A stretch of 33,260 nt of DNA, taken from positions 1 through 33,260 of the forward strand of contig JADZEA010000064.1 of NCBI GenBank assembly GCA_020850775.1, read 5' to 3'. Below the pieces are notes generated by a model. That model had not been told where the DNA came from. It did no database searches and worked only from the letters and a program-made list of their open reading frames with translations. A program made the translations under genes and the position numbers. This DNA is from a bacterium. Its GTDB lineage: Bacteria > CLD3. Below, piece after piece: positions 5,982 to 22,476 of the stretch; position 1 is the first letter of the stretch, and each line of letters starts with the position of its first letter.

Positions 5982-6009
5982 ACTTTACCTGGAAATTTAT
6001 TTTTAATTG

Positions 6010-6037
6010 TTGCAAAAAGTGTTGCAACCTGTTGCAA
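6010..6037 (+). promoter_or_regulatory. putative activator-binding array (three TTGCAA sites), operon 1
   Basis: TTGCAA occurs at 6010-6015, 6022-6027 and 6032-6037; the middle copy sits in a perfect GTTGCAAC palindrome. Spacings are 12 and 10 bases, about one helical turn each. The array lies about 85 bases before the -12 element of a sigma-54-like promoter, a usual position for an enhancer. The same three-site array, with spacings in mirrored order, precedes the cytochrome unit at 14028-14055. The inferred ligand is the activator encoded at 10660-12348. Confidence 0.7.
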
Positions 6038-6095
6038 GGTTTTGCTGGAAAAATCGCAAAAACCTTGTTCTAAAGCTACTTTCGGCTAAAAACAC

Positions 6096-6113
6096 TTGGT
6101 ACAGCTTTTGGAT
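6096..6113 (+). promoter_or_regulatory. sigma-54 promoter of the oxidoreductase operon
   Basis: TTGGTACAGCTTTTGGAT matches the sigma-54 form TGGCAC-N5-TTGC closely. GG at 6098-6099 is followed by exactly ten bases and GG at 6110-6111, where the consensus has GC. Predicted transcription would begin near 6122, giving a leader of about 25 bases before the ATG at 6148. This places the promoter inside an apparent upstream extension of the reading frame, which is therefore unlikely to be translated. Confidence 0.75.
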
Positions 6114-6147
6114 TAATCCTTTTGCAAAAATTGAAAGGATTAAAAAA

Positions 6148-6753
6148 ATGGAAACAAATTCTCACAAAAATTTAGTCAAAGAACTTGAAGTAGTTTCCCA
6201 ATTTTTTGCTGTCTTGTTTGAGTACCCAAACCCTGCAATTTTAAGTTACTTTACAAACGATAAAATTCTTGTAAAAGACCTTTGTAAAATCTCAAACACC
6301 GAGTTTCTTTCTTTTCGTTCACTAACTTACCGCGACCTTGAGATTGCTTACAATTCACTTTTTATCGTTGAGCCAACTAAAAACGGTGCTGTTCTTTACG
6401 AGTCTTACTACGCTTCCCCGGAAAAAATGCTCAACCAGGAGAGTTCCCGCCAAATCAAAAAATTAGTTGAAGCTGAAAATGGGTTTGTTTCTGAAAATTC
6501 TCCTGCTGACTACTTGCCTGTGATTTTGAGTTTGCTGAATCTTTACTGTGAAAAATTTCTTGAAACAAACGAGCAAAACTACTTTCATAAAATTGTTTTT
6601 TTGCTTGAGAACCACGTTTTCAACTGGATGGAAAAATTCACTTTTGATGTTTTGAGGCATTCAAATGTTTTTTACGGATTTATCGCAAACCTTTACTACA
6701 ACTACTTTCAACTTGTAAAATCAAACCTTGAAGAATTGAGGAAAATAAAATGA
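6148..6753 (+). CDS. TorD/DmsD-family molybdoenzyme maturation chaperone
   Basis: The protein has 201 residues, as is usual for this all-helical cytoplasmic family. Such proteins bind the Tat signal and apo-form of a molybdopterin enzyme until cofactor insertion and export. Family-like features are the central PADYLPVILSLLNLY segment (the equivalent of the usual P-x-DHL helix) and the C-terminal pattern WMEKF followed by FYGFIANLYYNYF. The frame is open back to 6007, but ATG at 6148 is preferred. It has GAAAGGAT at 6133-6140 in good position, and the sigma-54 promoter lies in the upstream part. The stop codon overlaps the ATG of the catalytic subunit (ATGA), which indicates coupled translation and that this is its client. 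Confidence 0.85.
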   Translation: METNSHKNLVKELEVVSQFFAVLFEYPNPAILSYFTNDKILVKDLCKISNTEFLSFRSLTYRDLEIAYNSLFIVEPTKNGAVLYESYYASPEKMLNQESSRQIKKLVEAENGFVSENSPADYLPVILSLLNLYCEKFLETNEQNYFHKIVFLLENHVFNWMEKFTFDVLRHSNVFYGFIANLYYNYFQLVKSNLEELRKIK

Positions 6754-8921
6754 AAAATTTATCAAGACGTGAATTTTTGAGAAGAACTTCACTTTCAGCT
6801 CTTGTTTTGGCTTTTGCTTCTTCGGGAATTCCTGTTTTGTTTTCTGAGGAAACAAAGATTGCAGCTACCACAAAAGGCAAAAAGTACGTTTACACTTCCT
6901 GTGAAATTTGCGTGAACAAGTGCGGATTAAAAGCTCACGTTGAAAACGGCAGAATTGTCAGACTTGAGCCAAACCCGCACTTTCCAAAAAGCCGCGGAAT
7001 GGTTTGTGCAAGAGGAAACGCTGGTGCAAGAGTTCCGTACTCTGCGGACAGATTAAAATTCCCGCTTGTTCGTGTCGGAGAACGCGGTGAAAACAAGTGG
7101 CGAAAAGCAAACTGGGACGAAGCACTGAAAATTGTTGGCGAAAATCTGAACAAAGTAGTTGAAACACAAAAAAACCGTTCTGCTGTAATGTTTGCTTCAA
7201 CCGAAGGTTTTCAGGAAGAATTTTTTAAGACTTTTGCTGAAGCCTTTGGTTCTTACAACGTTGTCAGGCATCCAACTCTCTGCTTAGCTTCAAACATTCA
7301 GGGCTTTTCAGCAGTTCTCGGAACTTATCCGGACGCAGACATCAAAAATGCAAACTACGTGATTTTTTGCGGAAGCAACAGGCTTGAAGCATTGATTACT
7401 CCGGATTCAATTGACCTTTTGAAAACCGGAAACAAAAAAATTGTTACTCTTGACCCGCGTTTTACAAAAACAGCCGCAAAATCAGGCGAGTGGTTACCAA
7501 TCAAAGTCGGAACCGATTTAGCCTTTGCACTTGCGATGATTAACGTTTTGATTAACGAGGAGCTTTACGACAAAAAATTTGTTGAAGAAAAAACTTTTGG
7601 TTTTGAAGAACTCAAAAACCACGTCAAAAATTACACTCCGGAATGGGCTGAAAAGGAAACGGAAATTCCTGCTGAAACCATCAGAAGAATTGCGACAGAG
7701 TTCGCTGAAAACGCACCAAAATCGGTTTACTATCCGGGAAGAAGGTCGTCTTTCAGTAAAAACGACGCAGAACTAAGGCGGGCAATTGCGATGGTTAATG
7801 CTTTGGTCGGGAATTTTAATGCGAAAGGCGGTCTCGTTCAATCTCTTTCAATTCCGCTAAAAAAAGTTGAGTTTGAACCGGTTTGGTACGACGACAACGC
7901 AGAAGAAAGGCTTGAAGCAGGAACAGTTCAGTTTTTGACTGAAAGTTCAGGAGCGTGGCTTCCTTTCAGAGACGCAGTTTTGAAAGGCGAACCTTACCCG
8001 GTTAAAGCGATGGTAACTTACAAAACGAATCCTGTTGCTTCTGTTCCGAACCGTAAAAAAACGCTTGAAATGATGAAAAAGATGGATTTTATCGCAGTGA
8101 TTGACACAGAAATGTCTGACACGGCTTACTTTGCAGACGTGATTTTACCTGAGTCAACTTACCTTGAAAGATGGGACCCGGCACACGTTTTGAGCGGAAT
8201 TGAACCTGTAGTAACTTTCAGGCAACCAGTAATTGAGCCACTTTACGACACAAAATCCTGCCTTGAAATTATGCAGGGATTAGTAAAAACTTGCGGGCTT
8301 GAGACAAATCCTTTTGATTACACAATCCAAAATTACATCAAAACGCAGGTTGAAAATTACGAAGGAGCTTACGAAAAATTGCTTGAAACAGCGGTTTTTA
8401 TTCCTGAAAATTTGCCAAATCCTTACGGCGAAAGACCAATCAAAACCCAAACCCAAAAAATTGAGTTTTACAGCGAAAAGTATCTTTCAAAGGGCTTAAA
8501 CCCAATGCCAACTTACGAAAAGCCAGGTGAAATCCCTGACGGAAAGTTTAAGTTCGTAGTTGGAAGGCACGCATTTTTTACACACAGTTCAACGAATTTG
8601 GATTACCTGAACACAATTATGAACCAAAATACTTTGTGGATTAACACGAAAGCGGCTGAAAGGCTTGGCATCAAAAACAACGATTTGGTGCTTGTAAAAT
8701 CAGCAGTTGGTGAAGGAAAACTCAATGCTTTTGTAACGGAAGGAATCAGACCCGACACAGTTTTTTTCATTCACGGTTTTGGCTCGGTTTCAAAAGGTCT
8801 GAGCAAAACTTACGGAGTTGGTGCTTCGGAATCGGAAATTCTTGAAGACCACTACGAACCAATTTCGGGGAATGCACTGTTACACGAAACGATTGTTCAA
8901 GTTGAGAAAGTGAGAGGATAA
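6750..8921 (+). CDS. psrA: molybdopterin oxidoreductase catalytic subunit, polysulfide/thiosulfate reductase (PsrA/PhsA) type
   Basis: This 723-residue member of the DMSO-reductase superfamily has a Tat signal (SRREFLRR at 5-12 plus a hydrophobic stretch), so it acts in the periplasm. A [4Fe-4S] site is formed by Cys51, Cys54, Cys58 and Cys86 (CX2CX3CX27C). The likely molybdenum ligand is Cys178, in HPTLCLASN, as in Psr/Phs and arsenate-reductase relatives rather than the serine or aspartate types. The C-terminal cofactor-binding domain is complete. It is close in length to PhsA/PsrA and much shorter than tetrathionate or selenate reductases. Expected role: reduction of a sulfur compound or similar oxyanion with electrons from the next two subunits. 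The substrate is an inference; arsenate or another acceptor cannot be excluded. Confidence 0.88.
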   Translation: MKNLSRREFLRRTSLSALVLAFASSGIPVLFSEETKIAATTKGKKYVYTSCEICVNKCGLKAHVENGRIVRLEPNPHFPKSRGMVCARGNAGARVPYSADRLKFPLVRVGERGENKWRKANWDEALKIVGENLNKVVETQKNRSAVMFASTEGFQEEFFKTFAEAFGSYNVVRHPTLCLASNIQGFSAVLGTYPDADIKNANYVIFCGSNRLEALITPDSIDLLKTGNKKIVTLDPRFTKTAAKSGEWLPIKVGTDLAFALAMINVLINEELYDKKFVEEKTFGFEELKNHVKNYTPEWAEKETEIPAETIRRIATEFAENAPKSVYYPGRRSSFSKNDAELRRAIAMVNALVGNFNAKGGLVQSLSIPLKKVEFEPVWYDDNAEERLEAGTVQFLTESSGAWLPFRDAVLKGEPYPVKAMVTYKTNPVASVPNRKKTLEMMKKMDFIAVIDTEMSDTAYFADVILPESTYLERWDPAHVLSGIEPVVTFRQPVIEPLYDTKSCLEIMQGLVKTCGLETNPFDYTIQNYIKTQVENYEGAYEKLLETAVFIPENLPNPYGERPIKTQTQKIEFYSEKYLSKGLNPMPTYEKPGEIPDGKFKFVVGRHAFFTHSSTNLDYLNTIMNQNTLWINTKAAERLGIKNNDLVLVKSAVGEGKLNAFVTEGIRPDTVFFIHGFGSVSKGLSKTYGVGASESEILEDHYEPISGNALLHETIVQVEKVRG

Positions 8922-8922
8922 A

Positions 8923-9477
8923 ATGGAAACTAAAAAAAAATACGTGATGGTGATTGACACTCAAAAATGTTTTGATTGCAAAGCCTGTACAATTGCCTGC
9001 AAGATGGAAAACAACGTCGCAGACAATTCACAGGAGTACCGAAACTGGGTTGAAACGGGAGAAATCTGCGGAACTTTTCCAAACTTAACGCAAAAATTTA
9101 TTCCCGGACAGTGTAACCACTGCACAAATGCTCCTTGTGAAAAAGTTTGCCCGACTTCTGCAACTTACAGAAACGAAGATGGATTGATAATGATTGACGC
9201 TGAAAAGTGCATTGTTTGTAAGTATTGTATGGTTGCCTGCCCTTACGACGCAAGGTTTGTTTCAACTACAAGGCACGTTGTTGACAAGTGTGATTTTTGT
9301 TACGACAGGATTAAAATTGGTGAACTTCCGGCTTGTGTACAAACTTGCCCACCAAAAACGAGGACTTTTGGAGACCTGAACGACCCAAATTCTGAAGTTT
9401 CAAAACTCTTGAAAAATCGTGAGTACAAAGTTCTTAAACCCGAAACAGGTGCAGAACCTAATGTTTTTTACCTTTAA
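8923..9477 (+). CDS. psrB: four-cluster ferredoxin electron-transfer subunit (PsrB/NrfC/DmsB type)
   Basis: The protein has 184 residues and sixteen cysteines in the four classic groups: CFDCKACTIACK (Cys16-26), CNHCTNAPCEKVCP, CIVCKYCMVACP, and CDFCYDR followed by CVQTCP. It therefore carries four [4Fe-4S] clusters that pass electrons between the membrane subunit and the molybdenum subunit. There is no signal peptide of its own; such subunits are exported by hitch-hiking on the Tat-bearing partner. It begins one base after the catalytic subunit's stop codon, preceded by GAGAGGAT as ribosome site. The length is normal and no cysteine is missing. Confidence 0.95.
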   Translation: METKKKYVMVIDTQKCFDCKACTIACKMENNVADNSQEYRNWVETGEICGTFPNLTQKFIPGQCNHCTNAPCEKVCPTSATYRNEDGLIMIDAEKCIVCKYCMVACPYDARFVSTTRHVVDKCDFCYDRIKIGELPACVQTCPPKTRTFGDLNDPNSEVSKLLKNREYKVLKPETGAEPNVFYL

Positions 9478-9496
9478 AATTTATGAGGAACAAAAG

Positions 9497-10609
9497 ATGT
9501 TGACTAAAAAAAATATAATTTACCTTTCAATTTTGTTTGCACTAACCGGAGTTTTTGCGGTTTTTGAAACTTACTACACGGGACGCGAAGAAAGTTTTAA
9601 CCTGACGCGGGAAGTTCCCTGGGGAATGCACATTGTTGGTTACATTTTTTTCGTAGCAATTTCTACGGGACTTTGTTTGATTGCTTCGCTTGGACACATT
9701 TTTAAGATTAAGGATTTTGACCAAATGGGAAAGCACTTGATTTTGCTTTCAATTGTTACGCTTTTTGCGGCGTTTTTTGTGATTGGTCTTGAGCTTGAGT
9801 ATCCGTTAAGGCTTGTGGTTTACAACGTTGTTTCGCCAAATTTTCACTCTCCGATGTGGTGGATGGGAACGCTTTACGGAGTTTACACTGTTCTTTTGAT
9901 TGCAGAGTTTTATTTTTTAAACAAAAAACAATTCAAACTTGCGGGGATTTTAGGTTTGATTGGAGTTGGTGCGGACATCGTGGCTCACGCGAACCTTGGA
10001 GCTTTGTTTTCGGTTGCGAGACCTTTTTGGAGCGGAGCATTTTTACCACCTTACTTTATCGTTTTAGCGGTTCAGTCCGGAGCTTCCGTGATGGTAATTT
10101 TTCTTACTCTAATCAAAAAACACAACAACCTTTCAATTGAAAGTTCAATCGTTGCTGCCGAAAGATTGATGGGAATTGCGATTGGAGTTTTGTTTTTGTT
10201 TCAAGCCTCAAGGATTTTGTCTTCAGCGATAATGTCAAGCCCTGATGTTTACCTTGCTGCGATGAGTTTGATTGCGGGACCGCTTGCATTTTATTTTTGG
10301 TTTGGCGAAGTTTTTTTGGGAATGATTTTGCCGGTTGTCCTTTTGGTGAAAGCTAAAAAATCAGGGAATTTTGGTTTGCTTGCTGCTTTTGCTTCAATCG
10401 CTGGAATGTTTTTTATGCGTTACAACCACGTTGTTGCAGGTCAGCTCGTCCCGATTCGCAAGTACTACAAGTTAGAAATGGCTGGAGATTACGTGATTTA
10501 CAGTCCTTCTTTGGTTGAAACGGCAACAATCGTCGGTGCTGTTGGTTTCACTTTTCTTTTTTACTACCTCGCTGAAAGGTATTTTAAAATGGAAAAAGAA
10601 ATTTCTTAA
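9497..10609 (+). CDS. nrfD: NrfD/PsrC-family quinol-oxidising membrane subunit
   Basis: The protein has 370 residues and about nine or ten hydrophobic helices, the form of the NrfD family that anchors Psr-type complexes and exchanges electrons with (mena)quinol. Supportive segments include REVPWGMHIVGYIFF near the start, a SPMWWMGTLYGVY loop and a late MRYNHVVAGQLVP loop. The frame is open back to 9419, inside the ferredoxin gene. The ATG at 9497 is preferred because GAGGA lies about eight bases upstream and because it places the first membrane helix at the N-terminus. It completes a chaperone-A-B-C set typical of anaerobic respiratory complexes. Confidence 0.92.
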   Translation: MLTKKNIIYLSILFALTGVFAVFETYYTGREESFNLTREVPWGMHIVGYIFFVAISTGLCLIASLGHIFKIKDFDQMGKHLILLSIVTLFAAFFVIGLELEYPLRLVVYNVVSPNFHSPMWWMGTLYGVYTVLLIAEFYFLNKKQFKLAGILGLIGVGADIVAHANLGALFSVARPFWSGAFLPPYFIVLAVQSGASVMVIFLTLIKKHNNLSIESSIVAAERLMGIAIGVLFLFQASRILSSAIMSSPDVYLAAMSLIAGPLAFYFWFGEVFLGMILPVVLLVKAKKSGNFGLLAAFASIAGMFFMRYNHVVAGQLVPIRKYYKLEMAGDYVIYSPSLVETATIVGAVGFTFLFYYLAERYFKMEKEIS

Positions 10610-10659
10610 AATCAATTTTTTGAGTAACTTTGGAGAGTAAAAAATTTAATCAGGGTAAA

Positions 10660-12348
10660 ATGACAAATCTTTCAGCAGACACGGTTCTTGAAATCCTGAA
10701 CAACTTATCGGGAATTATCATTGTTGCGACCGAACAAAGAAAAATTGTTTTTATCAACAAAGAAGGCGAAAAATATTTTAAGTGTAAACTTGAGAGCATT
10801 TTTGAAAAAAGCTGTTCGCTAATCATTAATCAGGAGTTCCACGAAACTTTTTGCCTTTTTGAAGAAGTTACCAAAACCGACGAAGTGCTTTACAAGTTCA
10901 ACGTAAACCTTTTGGGCGAGGCATTTTCGGTAACTGCTTTTAAAATCAGAACTAACGATAACAGAATTTTGATAGTTCATAATTTCAGGTTCGTGAACGA
11001 CCTTGTTTCGATGATTCGCAAAATTGAAACTGAACGCGACATTTTGCACACAAAATTTAACAACATCGTGAAAATTCTGGATAAACTCAACGAAGCATTT
11101 CTGCTTGTAAATTCAAAAGACGAAGTTTCCCTGATGAACCGCTACGCAGAAACCGCAACGGGAATTTCTAAAAAGCAGGTTTTGAACAAAAAATTTGCAA
11201 CTTTTCTTAACCTGCTAAACCTTGAAAATGGAAAAAACATTCTTCCGCTTCTCAAAGCAAAAGATGAAATTTCAGACCTGAAAGGCGATTTTGTCGATTC
11301 GCAGGGCAACAAACACAAAATTTTAATCAATGCTTTTTACATCTCTTCTGACGAAAAAAATTTTGATTACTTAGTAAACATTCGCGACGTTGAACGGATT
11401 GAAGGTCAGCTAAGGCTCAAAAGCGAAGGCGAACTAATCCCGGGTTTTATCGGAAAATCAAAATCAATCCTACAAATCGCAAACACGCTCCAAATGGTCA
11501 AAAACGGCGACACAACAATCTTAATACAAGGCGAAAGTGGAACGGGAAAAGAAGTCATCGCCCGCGGAATCCATCAAATTGGTGCAAGAAAAGACAAACC
11601 TTTCGTCGCCGTAAACTGTGCCGCAATCCCCGAACAACTGATGGAATCCGAACTTTTCGGACACGAAAAAGGCGCTTTCACAGGTGCTTTGGCACAAAAA
11701 ACCGGTAAGTTTGAGTTTGCAACACAAGGAACAATTTTTCTTGACGAAATCGGCGAAATGCCTTTGCACCTGCAAACAAAATTACTTAGAGTTTTGCAGG
11801 AAAAATCTTTTGAGCGAGTTGGAGGAAACAAACAAATCCCGACAAACGCCAGAATCATCGCTGCAACAAACAAAAATTTAGCTGAAGAAGTTGAGAACGG
11901 GAATTTTCGCAGAGACTTGTTTTTTCGCCTGAACGTAATTCCAATCAAACTTCCGCCTCTTCGTGAACGGAAAGAAGACATCAAACTTTTGATTGAAAAT
12001 TTTCTGCCGAAACTCAACAAAAAGTACAACAAAAACATCATCGGAATTGAAAAACAAACGATGGATTTTTTGCTGAACTACGCGTGGCAGGGAAACGTCA
12101 GGGAACTGATGAACGTCCTTGAGTACGGCGTGATTTGTTGTCAGGAAAACCAACTTGAGCAAAAATATTTTCAGGGCATTCTGAACTCAAACGAAACTAA
12201 AACTACAAACGAAAAATACTCTGACCTTGAACGTGAAAAAATTCTCTCAACGCTTGAAAAAAACAAAGGCTCAATCAGTGAAGCTGCAAAAAATCTTGAA
12301 ATGCACAGAAGCACGCTTTGGAGAAAAATGCAAAAGTATAAAATTTAA
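10660..12348 (+). CDS. sigma-54-dependent transcriptional activator with PAS sensor region
   Basis: The protein has 562 residues from the ATG at 10660 (CAGGG ribosome site); a TTG 30 bases earlier is possible but less likely. Two PAS-like regions (about 5-110 and 125-245) precede a complete AAA+ domain. That domain has Walker A GESGTGKE (291-298), the sigma-54 contact loop GAFTGA (338-343), Walker B GTIFLDE (357-363) and the arginine-rich FRRDLFFRLNV. A Fis-type helix-turn-helix closes it (about 530-562). There is no receiver domain, so it probably senses a cytoplasmic ligand or redox state through the PAS part rather than phosphorylation. It follows nrfD by 50 bases with no terminator, so it is likely part of the operon it controls, giving positive feedback. 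Predicted targets are the two TTGCAA arrays. Confidence 0.93.
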   Translation: MTNLSADTVLEILNNLSGIIIVATEQRKIVFINKEGEKYFKCKLESIFEKSCSLIINQEFHETFCLFEEVTKTDEVLYKFNVNLLGEAFSVTAFKIRTNDNRILIVHNFRFVNDLVSMIRKIETERDILHTKFNNIVKILDKLNEAFLLVNSKDEVSLMNRYAETATGISKKQVLNKKFATFLNLLNLENGKNILPLLKAKDEISDLKGDFVDSQGNKHKILINAFYISSDEKNFDYLVNIRDVERIEGQLRLKSEGELIPGFIGKSKSILQIANTLQMVKNGDTTILIQGESGTGKEVIARGIHQIGARKDKPFVAVNCAAIPEQLMESELFGHEKGAFTGALAQKTGKFEFATQGTIFLDEIGEMPLHLQTKLLRVLQEKSFERVGGNKQIPTNARIIAATNKNLAEEVENGNFRRDLFFRLNVIPIKLPPLRERKEDIKLLIENFLPKLNKKYNKNIIGIEKQTMDFLLNYAWQGNVRELMNVLEYGVICCQENQLEQKYFQGILNSNETKTTNEKYSDLEREKILSTLEKNKGSISEAAKNLEMHRSTLWRKMQKYKI

Positions 12349-13985: not shown

Positions 13986-14022
13986 AAAAGCCTGAAAGGA
14001 GCAGAACTCGTTTCAGGCTTTT
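13986..14022 (+). terminator. rho-independent terminator
   Basis: AAAAGCCTGAAA (13986-13997) pairs perfectly with TTTCAGGCTTTT (14011-14022) and runs into a T-rich tract. It closes the 13494 gene and isolates the enhancer-like array that begins six bases later. Confidence 0.88.
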
Positions 14023-14027
14023 TTGTT

Positions 14028-14143: not shown

Positions 14144-14179
14144 TTAATCTTTATCAAATAAAATTTGGAGGTAAAAAAA

Positions 14180-14536
14180 ATGTGTAGTTCAAGATTTTTA
14201 GCAGCTTTAACGATTGGTTTTTTGGGAGTTTTTTCTCTGACCGGTGCAGAAGCGGCAGACAACGCAAAAAAAGGCAAGTTCCTTTACAAAACTTCCTGCA
14301 GGTTAGCTTGCCACGAAGGAAAAACCGACGGAGCAAAAGAGCTAAACCCAACTTCAAAAACAAAAGCTCAGTGGGAAAGTTTTTTTAAAGACGGAAACAA
14401 AAAACTCCTTAAAGTTCACGGAAAAAAAGAGCTTGAAAAAGTTCAAAATGAATTTAAAGAACAGGATTACAAAGACATTTTAAAATATTTGTACGAACAC
14501 GCTTCCGATTCCGACCAACCACAAACTTGTGGCTAA
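14180..14536 (+). CDS. small exported cytochrome c-like protein with CX3CH haem motif
   Basis: The protein has 118 residues from the ATG at 14180, which follows GGAGGT (14167-14172); a TTG at 14165 falls inside that ribosome site and is rejected. The signal peptide ends near residue 25 (LTGAEAA). The mature part contains a single haem-attachment-like motif, CRLACH, with three residues between the cysteines instead of the usual two. After it comes a helical region (SKTKAQWESFFKD) and a C-terminal helix (YKDILKYLYEHA) like the last helix of class I cytochromes. A final CG pair ends the protein. No clear distal Met ligand is visible. As a periplasmic electron carrier it could link the NrfD-type complex or quinol pool to another partner. 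It is co-transcribed with the barrel 38 bases downstream. Confidence 0.8.
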   Translation: MCSSRFLAALTIGFLGVFSLTGAEAADNAKKGKFLYKTSCRLACHEGKTDGAKELNPTSKTKAQWESFFKDGNKKLLKVHGKKELEKVQNEFKEQDYKDILKYLYEHASDSDQPQTCG

Positions 14537-14574: not shown

Positions 14575-16347
14575 ATGAAAACTTTATTTTTAACAATGGT
14601 TTTGTCTTCGGCATTGGTTTCCAACGTTTTTGCTGAAGACGAAGAACTAAAAGAAGAAGTGAAAAGCCTTGACGAGAGGCTTTCAAAAGTTGAAGTGAAA
14701 ACTGCAAACGACAGAGTGAACTTTAACATTGATTTTAGAACGAGGTACGATTACATCAACTACGACGGAATGCAAAGCCTTCCTGAATGGGCTCAAATGA
14801 TGATGGCTTTGTGGTCTTTTGACAGATTAGCCGTAGCAGGAACACAGCAACAAGGTGCGTTAAACGATGGTGATTATATTTTTAACCCAAATTTTATGGC
14901 AAAGTACGGAACGATTTTGCAACCGATGATGCCAAACATGGTTGCCGCAGGTTTTGTAACAGCTAACGAACTTGGAATGTACAAAATCAACACCAACGAA
15001 CTTGGAAAACCTTACTTCAGCGATACTTTTACGGCAACGGATTTGGCAAAGTATCAAATGCTTTTTTCGGGAATTGCACCTGAAAAATACAACAAAAAAA
15101 ACAAGGCTTTGTGGACGAACCGTTTGAAACTTGGTTTTGATTCAAAAGTTGACGAGCATCTTTCTTTTGCCGGAAGGCTTTCAATGTACAAAGCGTGGGG
15201 CGACGCAACAGGTTACAGGTGGTTTAATGGCTCAATGAGTTCTGTAAACATGGATGGAAACGACGCTTCAATCCCAACAGACGACAAAGTCAGAGTTGAC
15301 AGAGCTTACTTTGTTTACTCAAACAAGGTTTACAACACGGATTACCACTGGCATTTTTCTTTCGGAAGAAGACCGGCAACAGCAGGAATGCCAAACCAAA
15401 ACCGTGAAAACTGGAACGTTGCAACAGGCTCACCACTAATCCACATCATTAACTGGCAGTTTGACGGAGCTTCGTTAGGCTTAAACTTTGGCGAAGATTT
15501 TATCGTTCCGGGACACGCAATCAAACTTTGTTACGGAAAAGGTTACGAAGGTGGTTGGGGAAATTCAGCTTCTTACAGTGCTGCAGACACAAAAGACGTA
15601 GAAATGATGGGATTCATCTGGACACTTTTTGACAACTCAACTTACAAATTAACAACTAACTACGCTTACGGAGACGGAATCACGGATGGATTTACAGGAG
15701 TTGTGATTACACCTTTTACAATCAACGGGCTTGACATCAACAGCGACGGAAATTACGACGAGTACTACTTTACAGCTAACGACGGCGGCTACATTTCAAG
15801 GTTTGAAGCAAGGTCAAAAATCGGAAACATGCACCTTGGAACACTTTTGGCACAGTACGAAGGCGAACATCTCAATGCTTTTGTTTCTTACGCATTTTCT
15901 AAAACAATCGCCGACGGAAAATCAATGAATGCAATGATGCAATTTATGGGAACTGACGGACTTCTAAATTCTTTTGGAACACAAAAAGACAGAAGCGGAA
16001 ACTCACTCTACGCAGGAATTATTGGAAAAATCGGCGAACACAGAATTGGTTTTGAGTACAACCAAGGCTCAAAATACTGGTTTAATTTTTCCGGTGCCGA
16101 AGATTCTCCAATTGCAAGTAAGTTAGCAGTCAGAGGAAAAGTTTACGAAGGTTACTGGCACATTCCAATCCACACAAACAGATTTTTTATGACAATTGCA
16201 GGAACTTACTACGATTACGATTACACAGGTTCGGGAAACCCAATGGGCGAGCCAAAGAAAATTTCACAACTTAACGGGCTTGACTCATTAATGCCTGTTG
16301 TTGACAAAGTTTACAACTTTAGTGTCGGGCTAAGTTACCGCTACTAA
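14575..16347 (+). CDS. outer-membrane beta-barrel protein, DUF3373-like
   Basis: This 590-residue protein has a signal peptide ending VFA at residue 20. A short acidic coiled coil follows (about 21-45, EELKEEVKSLDERLSKVE). The rest is a long barrel of amphipathic beta strands (FNIDFRTRYDYI at the start) ending in an aromatic strand (FSVGLSYRY). The pattern resembles DUF3373 outer-membrane proteins, which I recall from several groups of anaerobic respirers; their transport role is unproven. The gene shares a sigma-54-driven transcript with the CX3CH cytochrome, so it may admit the substrate or product of the respiratory enzyme, or dock an electron carrier. The ribosome site is GAGGT. A strong hairpin follows the stop codon. 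Confidence 0.85.
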   Translation: MKTLFLTMVLSSALVSNVFAEDEELKEEVKSLDERLSKVEVKTANDRVNFNIDFRTRYDYINYDGMQSLPEWAQMMMALWSFDRLAVAGTQQQGALNDGDYIFNPNFMAKYGTILQPMMPNMVAAGFVTANELGMYKINTNELGKPYFSDTFTATDLAKYQMLFSGIAPEKYNKKNKALWTNRLKLGFDSKVDEHLSFAGRLSMYKAWGDATGYRWFNGSMSSVNMDGNDASIPTDDKVRVDRAYFVYSNKVYNTDYHWHFSFGRRPATAGMPNQNRENWNVATGSPLIHIINWQFDGASLGLNFGEDFIVPGHAIKLCYGKGYEGGWGNSASYSAADTKDVEMMGFIWTLFDNSTYKLTTNYAYGDGITDGFTGVVITPFTINGLDINSDGNYDEYYFTANDGGYISRFEARSKIGNMHLGTLLAQYEGEHLNAFVSYAFSKTIADGKSMNAMMQFMGTDGLLNSFGTQKDRSGNSLYAGIIGKIGEHRIGFEYNQGSKYWFNFSGAEDSPIASKLAVRGKVYEGYWHIPIHTNRFFMTIAGTYYDYDYTGSGNPMGEPKKISQLNGLDSLMPVVDKVYNFSVGLSYRY

Positions 16348-19754: not shown

Positions 19755-20450
19755 TTAATTGTTTCTAATTCTTTTTGCAATGATTTCGCTTGCAACCAAC
19801 GAGCCACAAGATAAAATTACGGATAAAATTACAATCCTTAAGGCTGATGCTTCGCCGTTTGGAAACTGAAGGTAAGTAAAAAGTGCTAAAGGAAGCGTTC
19901 TTGTTTCACCTTCAATGTTTGAAACGAAAGTGATTGTTGCACCAAATTCGCCAAGGCTTCTTGCAAAAGATAAAATCAATCCTGTCAGAATTCCCGAAAA
20001 TGCTAAAGGCAAAGTAACTGTAAAAAACACTCTGATTTTGCTTGCTCCAAGTGTAAAAGCTGCTTCTTCAAGTCTTTTTTCAACAAGTTCAATTGACAGC
20101 CTGACTGAACGAACCATTAACGGGAAACCAATTACAGCAGAAGCTAAAACAGCTCCTTTCCAGTTGAAAGCTACGGAGAAGCCGAAAAAATCATTCAAAA
20201 ACTTGCCCAAAAAACCTTGGTTTCCAAAAAATAAAAGTAAAATGTAACCACTAACAATCGGCGGAAGAACTAAAGGCAAGTGAACGAGAACGTCAAAAAT
20301 TGTTTTTCCAAAAAAATTCTTTCTTGCAAGCAACCAACCACAAAAAACACCGGGAATAAAAGTTACGACGGAACACCAGAAAGCAACTTTGATTGAAAGA
20401 AAAAGGGCTGAAGTTTCTTCAGTGTTGAGTGTTAAAAATGAAAAATCCAT
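19755..20450 (-). CDS. modB: molybdate ABC transporter permease
   Basis: The protein has 231 residues from the ATG at 20450, the usual length for ModB; an upstream in-frame ATG at 20543 would add an unlikely tail. It has about five or six membrane helices. The permease loop that contacts the ATPase is EEAAFTLGASKIRVFFTVTLP near residue 135, and the family's SFARSLGEFGATI follows near 170. It imports molybdate across the inner membrane together with ModA (encoded at 21742-22476) and an ATPase, ModC, which is not in this window. The protein needs molybdenum-dependent customers, and the oxidoreductase at 6750 is one. It is separated from modA by an opposite-strand cytochrome gene. Confidence 0.93.
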   Translation of the reverse strand: MDFSFLTLNTEETSALFLSIKVAFWCSVVTFIPGVFCGWLLARKNFFGKTIFDVLVHLPLVLPPIVSGYILLLFFGNQGFLGKFLNDFFGFSVAFNWKGAVLASAVIGFPLMVRSVRLSIELVEKRLEEAAFTLGASKIRVFFTVTLPLAFSGILTGLILSFARSLGEFGATITFVSNIEGETRTLPLALFTYLQFPNGEASALRIVILSVILSCGSLVASEIIAKRIRNN

Positions 20451-20554
20451 AAAATTCTCTAAGTTTTGGTTTGTTAAACTAATTAATTGTAAGAAAGAAA
20501 GCAAGCCTGAGAGTTGGATTTTGAACAACAAGCTCCAAATCAAATAGAATACAA

Positions 20555-20620: not shown

Positions 20621-20703
20621 TTCTTTAGCCAAAAATAAAATCTGAACTTTACCAAAATAAATTAAACTGTCTGATGTTTTTAACCCTGACAAAGGAAAAT
20701 ACA

Positions 20704-21681
20704 ATGAAAAAAATAAGCAAAATAATTCTTTCCATCCTTGGAGTGCTGATACTTGTAATCACTTCTCTGCTCGGTTACGTTAAATTTTTTCTCCCTGACG
20801 TTGGCGAACCACCTGATTTAGTCGCAGAAAAAACAACAGAAAATATTGAAAGAGGAAAATATTTGGCAAATCACGTGATGGTTTGCATAGATTGCCATTC
20901 AACAAGAGACTGGAATCTGTTTGCTGCTCCGTTAGTACCAGGAACAGAAGGTAAAGGTGGAGAAGTGTTTGACCAACAACTCGGTTTTCCCGGAAAATAC
21001 GTCGCAGGAAACATCACACCAAAAAACCTCGGAAACTGGACAGACGGGGAAATTTTCAGAGCGATTACTTCCGGCGTTTCAAAAGACGGAACAGCATTAT
21101 TTTCCATTATGCCTCACCATAATTTTGGACAGCTCGATAAAAAAGATATTGAATCTGTAATTGTTTATCTAAGAACTTTGCAAACAATAGATTTTACACC
21201 TGAAAAATCAAAATCAGATTTTCCAATGAATTTTATCGTAAACACCATCCCGAAAAAAGCGGAACTAAAACCAATGCCCTCAAAAAACGATACAGTTAGC
21301 TACGGCGAGTACCTTGTTACTGCTTCAGGTTGCAAAGATTGCCACACAAAACAAGAAAAAGGAAAATTTGTTGGTGAACTTTTTGCCGGAGGATTTGATT
21401 TCAAATTTCCCGATGGTTCAATCGTAAGTTCCTCAAACATCACTCCACACCAAAACACCGGTATCGGAAACAAAACAAAAGAACAATTTGTTAATTTATT
21501 TAAAATGTATGCAGACAGCACCTACTCACCTGCTAAAGTCTCAAAAGGTGATTTTCAAACTGTTATGCCTTGGACAATGTATGCAGGAATGACTAACGAA
21601 GATTTGGAAGCAATTTACGACTACCTGAAAACCGTAAAACCCATTGAAAATTCTGTAACGCGTTTTACAGCTGCAAAATAA
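20704..21681 (+). CDS. membrane-anchored dihaem cytochrome c
   Basis: The protein has 325 residues from the ATG at 20704 (AAAGG ribosome site); an in-frame ATG at 20674 is less well placed. One N-terminal membrane helix (about 5-28, ISKIILSILGVLILVITSLLGY) anchors two class I-type cytochrome domains in the periplasm. The haem sites are CIDCH near residue 64 and CKDCH near 213. Each is followed by a GNITP/SNITP loop and a downstream region with methionines (MPHHNFGQL and VMPWTMYAGM) that may give the sixth ligands. It resembles the cytochrome subunits that accept electrons from periplasmic dehydrogenases, but no dehydrogenase gene is adjacent. It lies, on the opposite strand, between modB and modA. 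Confidence 0.9.
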   Translation: MKKISKIILSILGVLILVITSLLGYVKFFLPDVGEPPDLVAEKTTENIERGKYLANHVMVCIDCHSTRDWNLFAAPLVPGTEGKGGEVFDQQLGFPGKYVAGNITPKNLGNWTDGEIFRAITSGVSKDGTALFSIMPHHNFGQLDKKDIESVIVYLRTLQTIDFTPEKSKSDFPMNFIVNTIPKKAELKPMPSKNDTVSYGEYLVTASGCKDCHTKQEKGKFVGELFAGGFDFKFPDGSIVSSSNITPHQNTGIGNKTKEQFVNLFKMYADSTYSPAKVSKGDFQTVMPWTMYAGMTNEDLEAIYDYLKTVKPIENSVTRFTAAK

Positions 21682-21741: not shown

Positions 21742-22476
21742 TTACTCTGCCAAGCTAAAACCGTACTTTTGAAAAATTGCTTTAGCTTCCTTTGAAAAAA
21801 GAAAATCAAAAAAACCGTTCGCCTGAACGTTTGCATTTTTAACAATCCCAACAGGGTAAACAATTTTTGTGTGGCTTTCCTCAGGAAAAACAGCAAGAAT
21901 TTCTACTTTTTTTGAAATTTTAGCATCTGTTTGGTAAACGATTCCCAAAGGCACTTCACCAAGTTCCACAAACTTCAGCGCTGAACGAACATCAAAAGCA
22001 CCAACTACCCTTGATGGTTCCCACCAACCGAAAAAAATCAATGCTTCCTTTCCATAAATTCCTGCAGGAACGTGTGAAGGGTCGCCAAGTGCAATTTTTC
22101 CGCTAAAAGAACCTGCAAAATCAAAGCCTTTTTCCATTTTTACCGGAAAACTTTTTCCGGCAGGGCAAACAAGGACTAAAGTATTTTTAAGCAAAATTTC
22201 GGATTTGGAGATTTTATTTTTTGTTTGCAGGTGTTTCATCCAATCTAAGTCAGCAGCAAGAAAAATATCAGCATTTGCACCGGCTTCAATTTGTTTTGCT
22301 AAAGTTGACGTGGAGGCGAAAGCGGTAACAACCCTGATTTTTTTTTGTTTTTGGTAAAGTTTAGAAATTTCCGTGATTGCTTCTGTCGTGCTTGCGGGAG
22401 CGAAAACCGTGATTTTATTTTCAGCTTTAGCAAGGTAAGCGATGAAAAAAATGATTAAAAAAGCATGGGAGAACAT
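21742..22476 (-). CDS. modA: periplasmic molybdate-binding protein
   Basis: The protein has 244 residues with a signal peptide (MFSHAFLIIFFIAYLAKA). The mature part begins with the family pattern KITVFAPASTTEAITEI. FASTSTLAKQIEAGANADIFLAAD follows near residues 53-76 (given in two halves: FASTSTLAKQIEAG and ADIFLAAD), supplying oxyanion-binding serines. Then come IALGDPSHVPAGIYGKEAL and a VYQTDAK segment with the conserved late tyrosine. It delivers molybdate to ModB. The start follows TAAGGA by a normal distance. It begins 18 bases after the dnaA stop codon on the same strand, so it may be co-transcribed with dnaA, which is an unusual pairing. Confidence 0.94.
   Translation of the reverse strand: MFSHAFLIIFFIAYLAKAENKITVFAPASTTEAITEISKLYQKQKKIRVVTAFASTSTLAKQIEAGANADIFLAADLDWMKHLQTKNKISKSEILLKNTLVLVCPAGKSFPVKMEKGFDFAGSFSGKIALGDPSHVPAGIYGKEALIFFGWWEPSRVVGAFDVRSALKFVELGEVPLGIVYQTDAKISKKVEILAVFPEESHTKIVYPVGIVKNANVQANGFFDFLFSKEAKAIFQKYGFSLAE

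Follow-up and report, generated by a model that had tools for sequence, protein, structure and literature searches.

Atypical haem-attachment motifs are known from several respiratory cytochromes. CX3CH occurs in ImcH and in certain CymA homologues (PMC6295460). Across three families of metal- or sulfate-reducing bacteria, CXXCH accounts for 84-94% of haem-motif proteins, and a pattern search assigned most of the remainder to CXXXCH (PMC11434368). NrfA (CXXCK), MccA (CX15CH), and SirA (CX12NKGCH) place their atypical motifs at catalytic sites of multihaem proteins and need lyases of their own (NrfEFG, NrfI, CcsA1, SirEFG). The porin-cytochrome conduits (MtrAB, OmbB-OmaB-OmcB) and Cyc2 encode an outer-membrane barrel and a cytochrome together, and the cytochrome maturation (Ccm) machinery termed System I* is known from Desulfovibrio and archaea.

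We describe here a locus of a CLD3 bacterium, contained in a window of 33,260 nucleotides (the whole stretch of DNA that was analysed). Like ImcH and the CymA homologues, its cytochrome bears CX3CH as a conserved bacterial haem motif; unlike these multihaem quinol oxidases of the inner membrane, where CX3CH is one site among several, it is a small soluble protein in which CX3CH is the sole site. The gene and the main features of its product are as follows:

14180..14536, + strand: monohaem c-type cytochrome gene, 118 aa (ORF, translation, Pfam profile, homologues)
14167..14171, + strand: GGAGG ribosome-binding site, 8 bases 5' of the ATG (from the sequence)
14180..14254, + strand: predicted Sec signal peptide, residues 1-25, cleavage near AEA/A (from reading of the translation)
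14297..14314, + strand: CRLACH, the CX3CH haem-attachment motif, C40-R-L-A-C44-H45 (position conserved in the family alignment)

The reading frame runs from an ATG at 14180 to a stop codon at 14534-14536; the frame, its coordinates, and its motif agree with those of the preliminary description of this DNA. The GGAGG favours this ATG as the start over a TTG at 14165. The signal peptide, with the h-region LAALTIGFLGVFSLTG, is clearly of the Sec type, and a profile search returned Pfam Cytochrom_C (PF00034) at 23.2 bits, above the curated cut-off of 21.3, along with a CBB3 match (9.1e-05) under that profile's own cut-off. These data bear out the earlier claim of a small exported cytochrome, and we read the 118-aa protein as a class I-like monohaem cytochrome c, small, exported, and putatively haem-binding. 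It resembles class I monohaem cytochromes (PF00034/PF13442) in its size, its export, its haem motif near the mature N-terminus, and its passing of the PF00034 cut-off, and differs from them in its CX3CH, its lack of Met in the mature protein, its DSDQPQTCG end, and its barrel partner. A PDB search by sequence found yeast iso-1 cytochrome c only, weakly (E 0.2 and above), and an AlphaFold model from a two-row alignment (pLDDT 47.7) was too poor for use and was discarded.

The family alignment, with 30 CX3CH rows and 34 CX2CH rows, adds three features of the mature protein:

14417..14419, + strand: His80, candidate distal ligand at the place of the class I Met (H in 21 of 30 CX3CH rows)
14498..14500, + strand: His107, alternative candidate distal ligand (30 of 30 CX3CH rows, 21 of 34 CX2CH rows)
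14501..14533, + strand: C-terminal signature A-S-D-S-D-Q-P-Q-T-C-G with the conserved Cys117

No Met occurs in the mature protein and none is conserved across the family alignment, which, taken with the place of His80 and the invariance of His107, suggests that the haem probably has His as its sixth ligand or lacks one; ligation would probably be His/His or His/other, not His/Met. Cys117 is present in all CX3CH, YX2CH, and haem-less rows and in 23 of the 34 CX2CH rows. Rows without His80 often carry a Cys near that place plus the C-terminal Cys, and in these members the two perhaps form a disulfide or provide a Cys ligand.

CRLACH is one residue longer than CXXCH, and the translation of the 118-aa protein holds no CXXCH anywhere. 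A search of nine genomes of the window's phylum for the cytochrome and a DUF3373 barrel found both in two, the window's own genome and the only other member of its family ('Calditrichaeota bacterium isolate CLD3 48', contig QQUF01000044), whose homologue (56% identity) has CRVACH at the same place, the same DSDQPQTCG end, and the barrel gene following it. A two-row profile run on 386 genomes recovered strong relatives with the same C-terminal signature, and a six-row profile matched 25 of 51 genomes of one phylum (that of G118) and 46 of 395 of another (that of G031), the latter count including weak, generic cytochrome matches. We assign the former to Deferribacterota, given the 100% matches of the G396 plasmid to Deferribacter desulfuricans SSM1 and of the G391 plasmid to Calditerrivibrio nitroreducens; the latter appears to be Desulfobacterota-like. 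A search for plasmid relatives returned none of note. CX3CH is carried by two CLD3-type genomes and 17 Deferribacterota genomes, in the latter as CRTACH, CRLACH, CRLTCH, CRTTCH, CRTVCH, CREACH, and CRVACH, and CXXCH (CRTCH, CRSCH, CKTCH, CGSCH, and so on) by Desulfobacterota-like genomes, G283, G242, and G386, the single genome on the Deferribacterota side with that spacing. All motif classes occupy one position of the alignment.

Since CX3CH is conserved in the same-family genome and in the Deferribacterota set, and thus across two phyla, we reject a frameshift or a chance motif, and the atypical site first noticed in the preliminary description is real. That description would have counted homologues with a normal CXXCH at another position against the motif. 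Our alignment shows the spacing to be conserved within two lineages, and the CXXCH homologues that exist elsewhere have their motif at the same position, not another. The rarity that it ascribed to such spacings was overstated, in view of ImcH, some CymA homologues, and the survey cited above. Within a 527-kb sample of the window's genome, six other exported cytochromes carry 17 CXXCH motifs and zero CX3CH, so that CX3CH, found in one of seven exported cytochromes, is not common in that sample. A dihaem cytochrome with two normal CXXCH motifs, at 20674-21681 of the window, is a further case of standard spacing in the same genome.

Two groups of homologues lack the motif. Five Desulfobacterota-like genomes have YXXCH, YXXCQ, or YXXCK in place of CXXCH, possibly a single-thioether or haem-free version of the cytochrome fold; the loci concerned (L121-L123, L125, and L126; L170-L174) read YKSCH, YKACH, YEACH, YESCQ, and YKKCK, and all are without CcmF. 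The other group, nine rows in which the first Cys and the His are both gone (YHTxCAD(G)), comes from two Deferribacterota genera:

L093-L099, L150, L152-L154, L188, L190: haem-less YHTxCADG homologues, conserved in two Deferribacterota genera

Together with the CXXCH homologues, these groups make CX3CH one variant of a variable site and not a rigid new motif; the haem motif appears to have been stretched or lost during the evolution of the family, and its loss in some members suggests that the module may be able to do without haem. In a cytochrome tree of 78 rows (three of them second readings of the same genome's gene) and 81 columns, motif columns excluded, a length that affords little resolution, the motif classes cluster strongly (7 state changes vs ~35 with shuffled labels) and a single CX3CH origin is not rejected (AU p 0.21). 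In the barrel tree the window's barrel groups, with modest support, with that of G283, a CXXCH genome, and a union of the CLD3 and Deferribacterota barrels is not rejected (AU p 0.28). These topologies are consistent with one or two origins of CX3CH. Solitary second copies with CYKECH, CYKQCH, CYQMCH, or CHKTCH stand apart from barrel and molybdoenzyme genes in Deferribacterota (L137, L140, L145, L147, L149, and L189). Two haem domains of the family are fused into one protein at L176, L178, and L177; the first two of these loci encode the barrel on the opposite strand.

The partner gene and the element that bounds the pair are these:

14575..16347, + strand: partner gene for a DUF3373 protein of 590 aa, a predicted outer-membrane barrel (Pfam PF11853, 1e-119)
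13990..14025, + strand: terminator-like hairpin (GCCTGAAA/TTTCAGGC, then a T-run; read from the sequence)

The barrel gene starts 38 bp past the cytochrome stop codon and scores 400.7 bits against PF11853 (curated cut-off 26.1), which bears out the tie proposed earlier, to what is predicted to be an outer-membrane barrel; DUF3373 is listed among outer-membrane pore families (PMC4827864). An AlphaFold model of the barrel from a two-row alignment (pLDDT 31) was likewise too poor for use and was discarded. The hairpin has a 13-base loop, beyond the limits of our hairpin scan, and is not on that scan's list; it stands between the upstream gene and the pair, from which we infer that cytochrome and barrel probably form a two-gene unit. 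In each of the 13 main CX3CH loci that we examined at length, the next gene downstream on that strand encodes the barrel, and the two genes adjoin in genomes of the CLD3 type, in Deferribacterota, in G283 and G242, and in Desulfobacterota-like genomes. The locus is like the porin-cytochrome conduits and Cyc2 in encoding barrel and cytochrome together. Unlike MtrAB and the Omb conduits, it has one haem, in a separate small protein, and a DUF3373 barrel, with a single motif in the cytochrome and no multihaem cytochrome or further motif in the ORFs adjoining the pair; unlike Cyc2, it consists of two genes 38 bp apart and not of one polypeptide.

Upstream of the pair lies a respiratory operon of the Psr/Phs type:

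6007..6753, + strand: TorD-like molybdoenzyme chaperone (Pfam Nitrate_red_del, 7.7e-16)
6750..8921, + strand: Psr/Phs-like molybdopterin oxidoreductase catalytic subunit (Pfam Molybdopterin, 1.1e-42)
8923..9477, + strand: 4Fe-4S electron-transfer subunit, Psr-type operon (Cys clusters; homologues downstream of the molybdoenzyme in relatives)
9419..10609, + strand: NrfD-type membrane quinol subunit (Pfam NrfD, 2.9e-27; true start probably inside the ORF)
10630..12348, + strand: PAS/sigma-54 activator beside the Psr-type operon (Pfam Sigma54_activat, 4.3e-72; PAS)

Among NCBIfam models the molybdoenzyme scores highest with that of thiosulfate reductase PhsA, at 539 bits against a cut-off of 694, a sub-threshold match that does not fix its substrate. 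The activator gene sits between the Psr-type operon (6007-10609) and the pair; a sigma-54 promoter 5' of the cytochrome was considered and rejected, the pattern not being enriched in the window. The operon lies 3.5 kb from the pair, and in G001 no molybdoenzyme occurs in the ~4-8 kb read on each side of it, so that the functional link to the molybdoenzyme is loose in these genomes. In all 11 of the main CX3CH loci examined in Deferribacterota, the gene just upstream is TorD-like. In the family of G118, genes for a molybdoenzyme, an FeS protein, and NrfD follow the pair, and the flavoprotein of a flavocytochrome c sulfide dehydrogenase precedes it; the haem-less Deferribacterota copies are found outside the TorD-barrel slot, beyond the sulfide dehydrogenase gene. 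The CXXCH member of Desulfobacterota-like genomes often comes right before the genes for a molybdoenzyme and an FeS protein, or next to an octahaem-type cytochrome (PF11783). For Deferribacter autotrophicus, a porin near the tetrathionate reductase cluster has been suggested as an entry route for polysulfide (PMC6896113). Elsewhere in the window, two genes at 19755-20543 and 21742-22476 resemble, by reading, those for the permease and the binding protein of a molybdate transporter (ModB, ModA), which would suit the molybdoenzyme at 6750-8921.

The preliminary description held that unusual spacings sometimes need special lyases. We searched the whole genome of the window (100% complete) with PF01578, PF05140, PF03100, and PF03918 and found a single CcmF and a single CcmC as the sole Cytochrom_C_asm proteins, together with one CcmE, one CcmH (1.6e-23), and no ResB/CcsA above threshold. 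A second lyase like NrfE, SirE, or CcsA1 was thereby rejected for this genome, which sets the protein apart from NrfA, MccA, and SirA and leaves the special lyase unsupported. The CcmE is located as follows:

L060:274-702: Cys-type CcmE of the window's own genome (C229); other phylum members at L029-L036

This protein reads QAKCASKYEND, and its CASKY, with Cys in place of His, is that of System I*; the same Cys-type CcmE occurs in all nine genomes of the phylum, and a CXXXY CcmE is likewise present in the other ccm-bearing carriers in which CcmE was found. The genome departs from System I* in having a CcmH, there a variant with PCCW in place of the usual CXXC, but the absence of CcmH is not a strict criterion, since roughly one in three System I* sets of bacteria includes it (PMC3601427).

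Among 59 genomes with the cytochrome family, CcmF_C is present in 18 of the 19 that have CX3CH; the one without it, G393, is a draft assembly, and its three congeners have the protein. The count is 5 of 28 for genomes with CXXCH alone, 7 of 7 for those whose sole form is the haem-less one of Deferribacterota, and 0 of 5 for those with YXX forms. All CcmE matches in the fetched ccm regions, a few of which yielded no CcmE, are of the CPSKY type, CXXCH genomes with CcmF included. The CXXCH genomes that we checked have mostly CcsA-type proteins, among them G386, of the same phylum as the Deferribacterota CX3CH carriers, which has a 983-aa CcsBA-like protein and no CcmF. CX3CH thus occurs only alongside System I*, while System I* also occurs alongside CXXCH. 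The carriers are related and fall in two lineages; the match is a correlation that reflects at most two independent events and is no proof of cause. When given altered Cys spacing, the Ccm of Escherichia coli is reported to produce aberrant persulfide attachment (Sawyer 2010, as cited in PMC3601427), so that tolerance of CX3CH by the CLD3 machinery is not assured; the Cys-type Ccm may behave differently on such substrates.

We consider it probable that the protein is a periplasmic monohaem cytochrome that works with the DUF3373 barrel in a Psr/Phs-type module and receives its haem from a single System I*, with no dedicated lyase. The precedents of NrfA, MccA, and SirA, and a second CcmF in G400, G401, G402, and G395, speak for an unrecognised lyase or chaperone dedicated to CX3CH, a reading that is nonetheless quite improbable. 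Apart from its one CcmF, the window's genome encodes no Cytochrom_C_asm protein but CcmC, Deferribacter desulfuricans (G396), Calditerrivibrio (G391), and other CX3CH genomes give one CcmF_C match, and the neighbourhoods that we read showed no lyase-like gene near the cytochrome; the single-CcmF point is qualified by the additional short Cytochrom_C_asm proteins of several CX3CH genomes with one CcmF_C. On present evidence CX3CH needs no new kind of lyase. Nor is it likely that CX3CH is a degenerating site on its way to loss, with haem bound poorly, through a single thioether, or missing altogether, and with the protein retained for a structural role beside the barrel. Both motif-less groups do keep the rest of the protein, but a decaying site would drift, and both Cys and the His are invariant in 30 of 30 CX3CH rows from two phyla. 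The haem-less Deferribacterota copies, moreover, have left the TorD-barrel slot and look like a different use of the protein.

We also doubt that the pair is a conduit for extracellular electron transfer, a split, single-haem analogue of Cyc2 and the porin-cytochrome complexes with no part in sulfur-compound respiration. The adjacency of the two genes across phyla fits such a conduit, as does the fact that Deferribacterota include iron reducers without most known porin-cytochrome genes (PMC6896113). A single haem, however, cannot span the membrane unless it is seated inside the barrel, and the neighbours in the CX3CH clades are sulfur-type reductases and a sulfide dehydrogenase, not multihaem conduits. 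In the respiratory module that we favour, centred on Psr/Phs-type molybdoenzymes, the periplasmic cytochrome would carry electrons between the quinol-linked complex and an acceptor, by a presumptive path and with a presumptive substrate. The neighbouring barrel, with which it may make physical contact, would probably admit a sulfur compound or other acceptor to the periplasm or position the cytochrome at the outer membrane. Haem would be attached at CX3CH by the cell's one ordinary Ccm machine (System I*, Cys-type CcmE), which would tolerate a spacing apparently lengthened by one residue from the CXXCH found in sister lineages.

The family is a small, uncharacterised one with a real, conserved, and unusual haem motif. 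As a tentative generalization, it is possible that the two-gene outer-membrane module serves Psr/Phs-type respiration across several phyla, that the spacing of its haem site depends on the maturation system, CX3CH being allowed only where a Cys-type CcmE delivers the haem, and that haem was given up on two or more occasions. More interesting than the motif itself are the association of DUF3373 with a sulfur-type module, the way in which Cys spacing parallels the maturation system, and the fact that two groups have lost the haem site. The locus also supplies a gene context, sulfur-type respiration with a cytochrome partner, for DUF3373 barrels, to which Pfam assigns no function. One small cytochrome offers a natural series of CXXCH, CX3CH, YXXCH, and no haem site in hosts with System I* or System II, and this series is a direct handle on what decides the Cys spacing that a haem lyase accepts.
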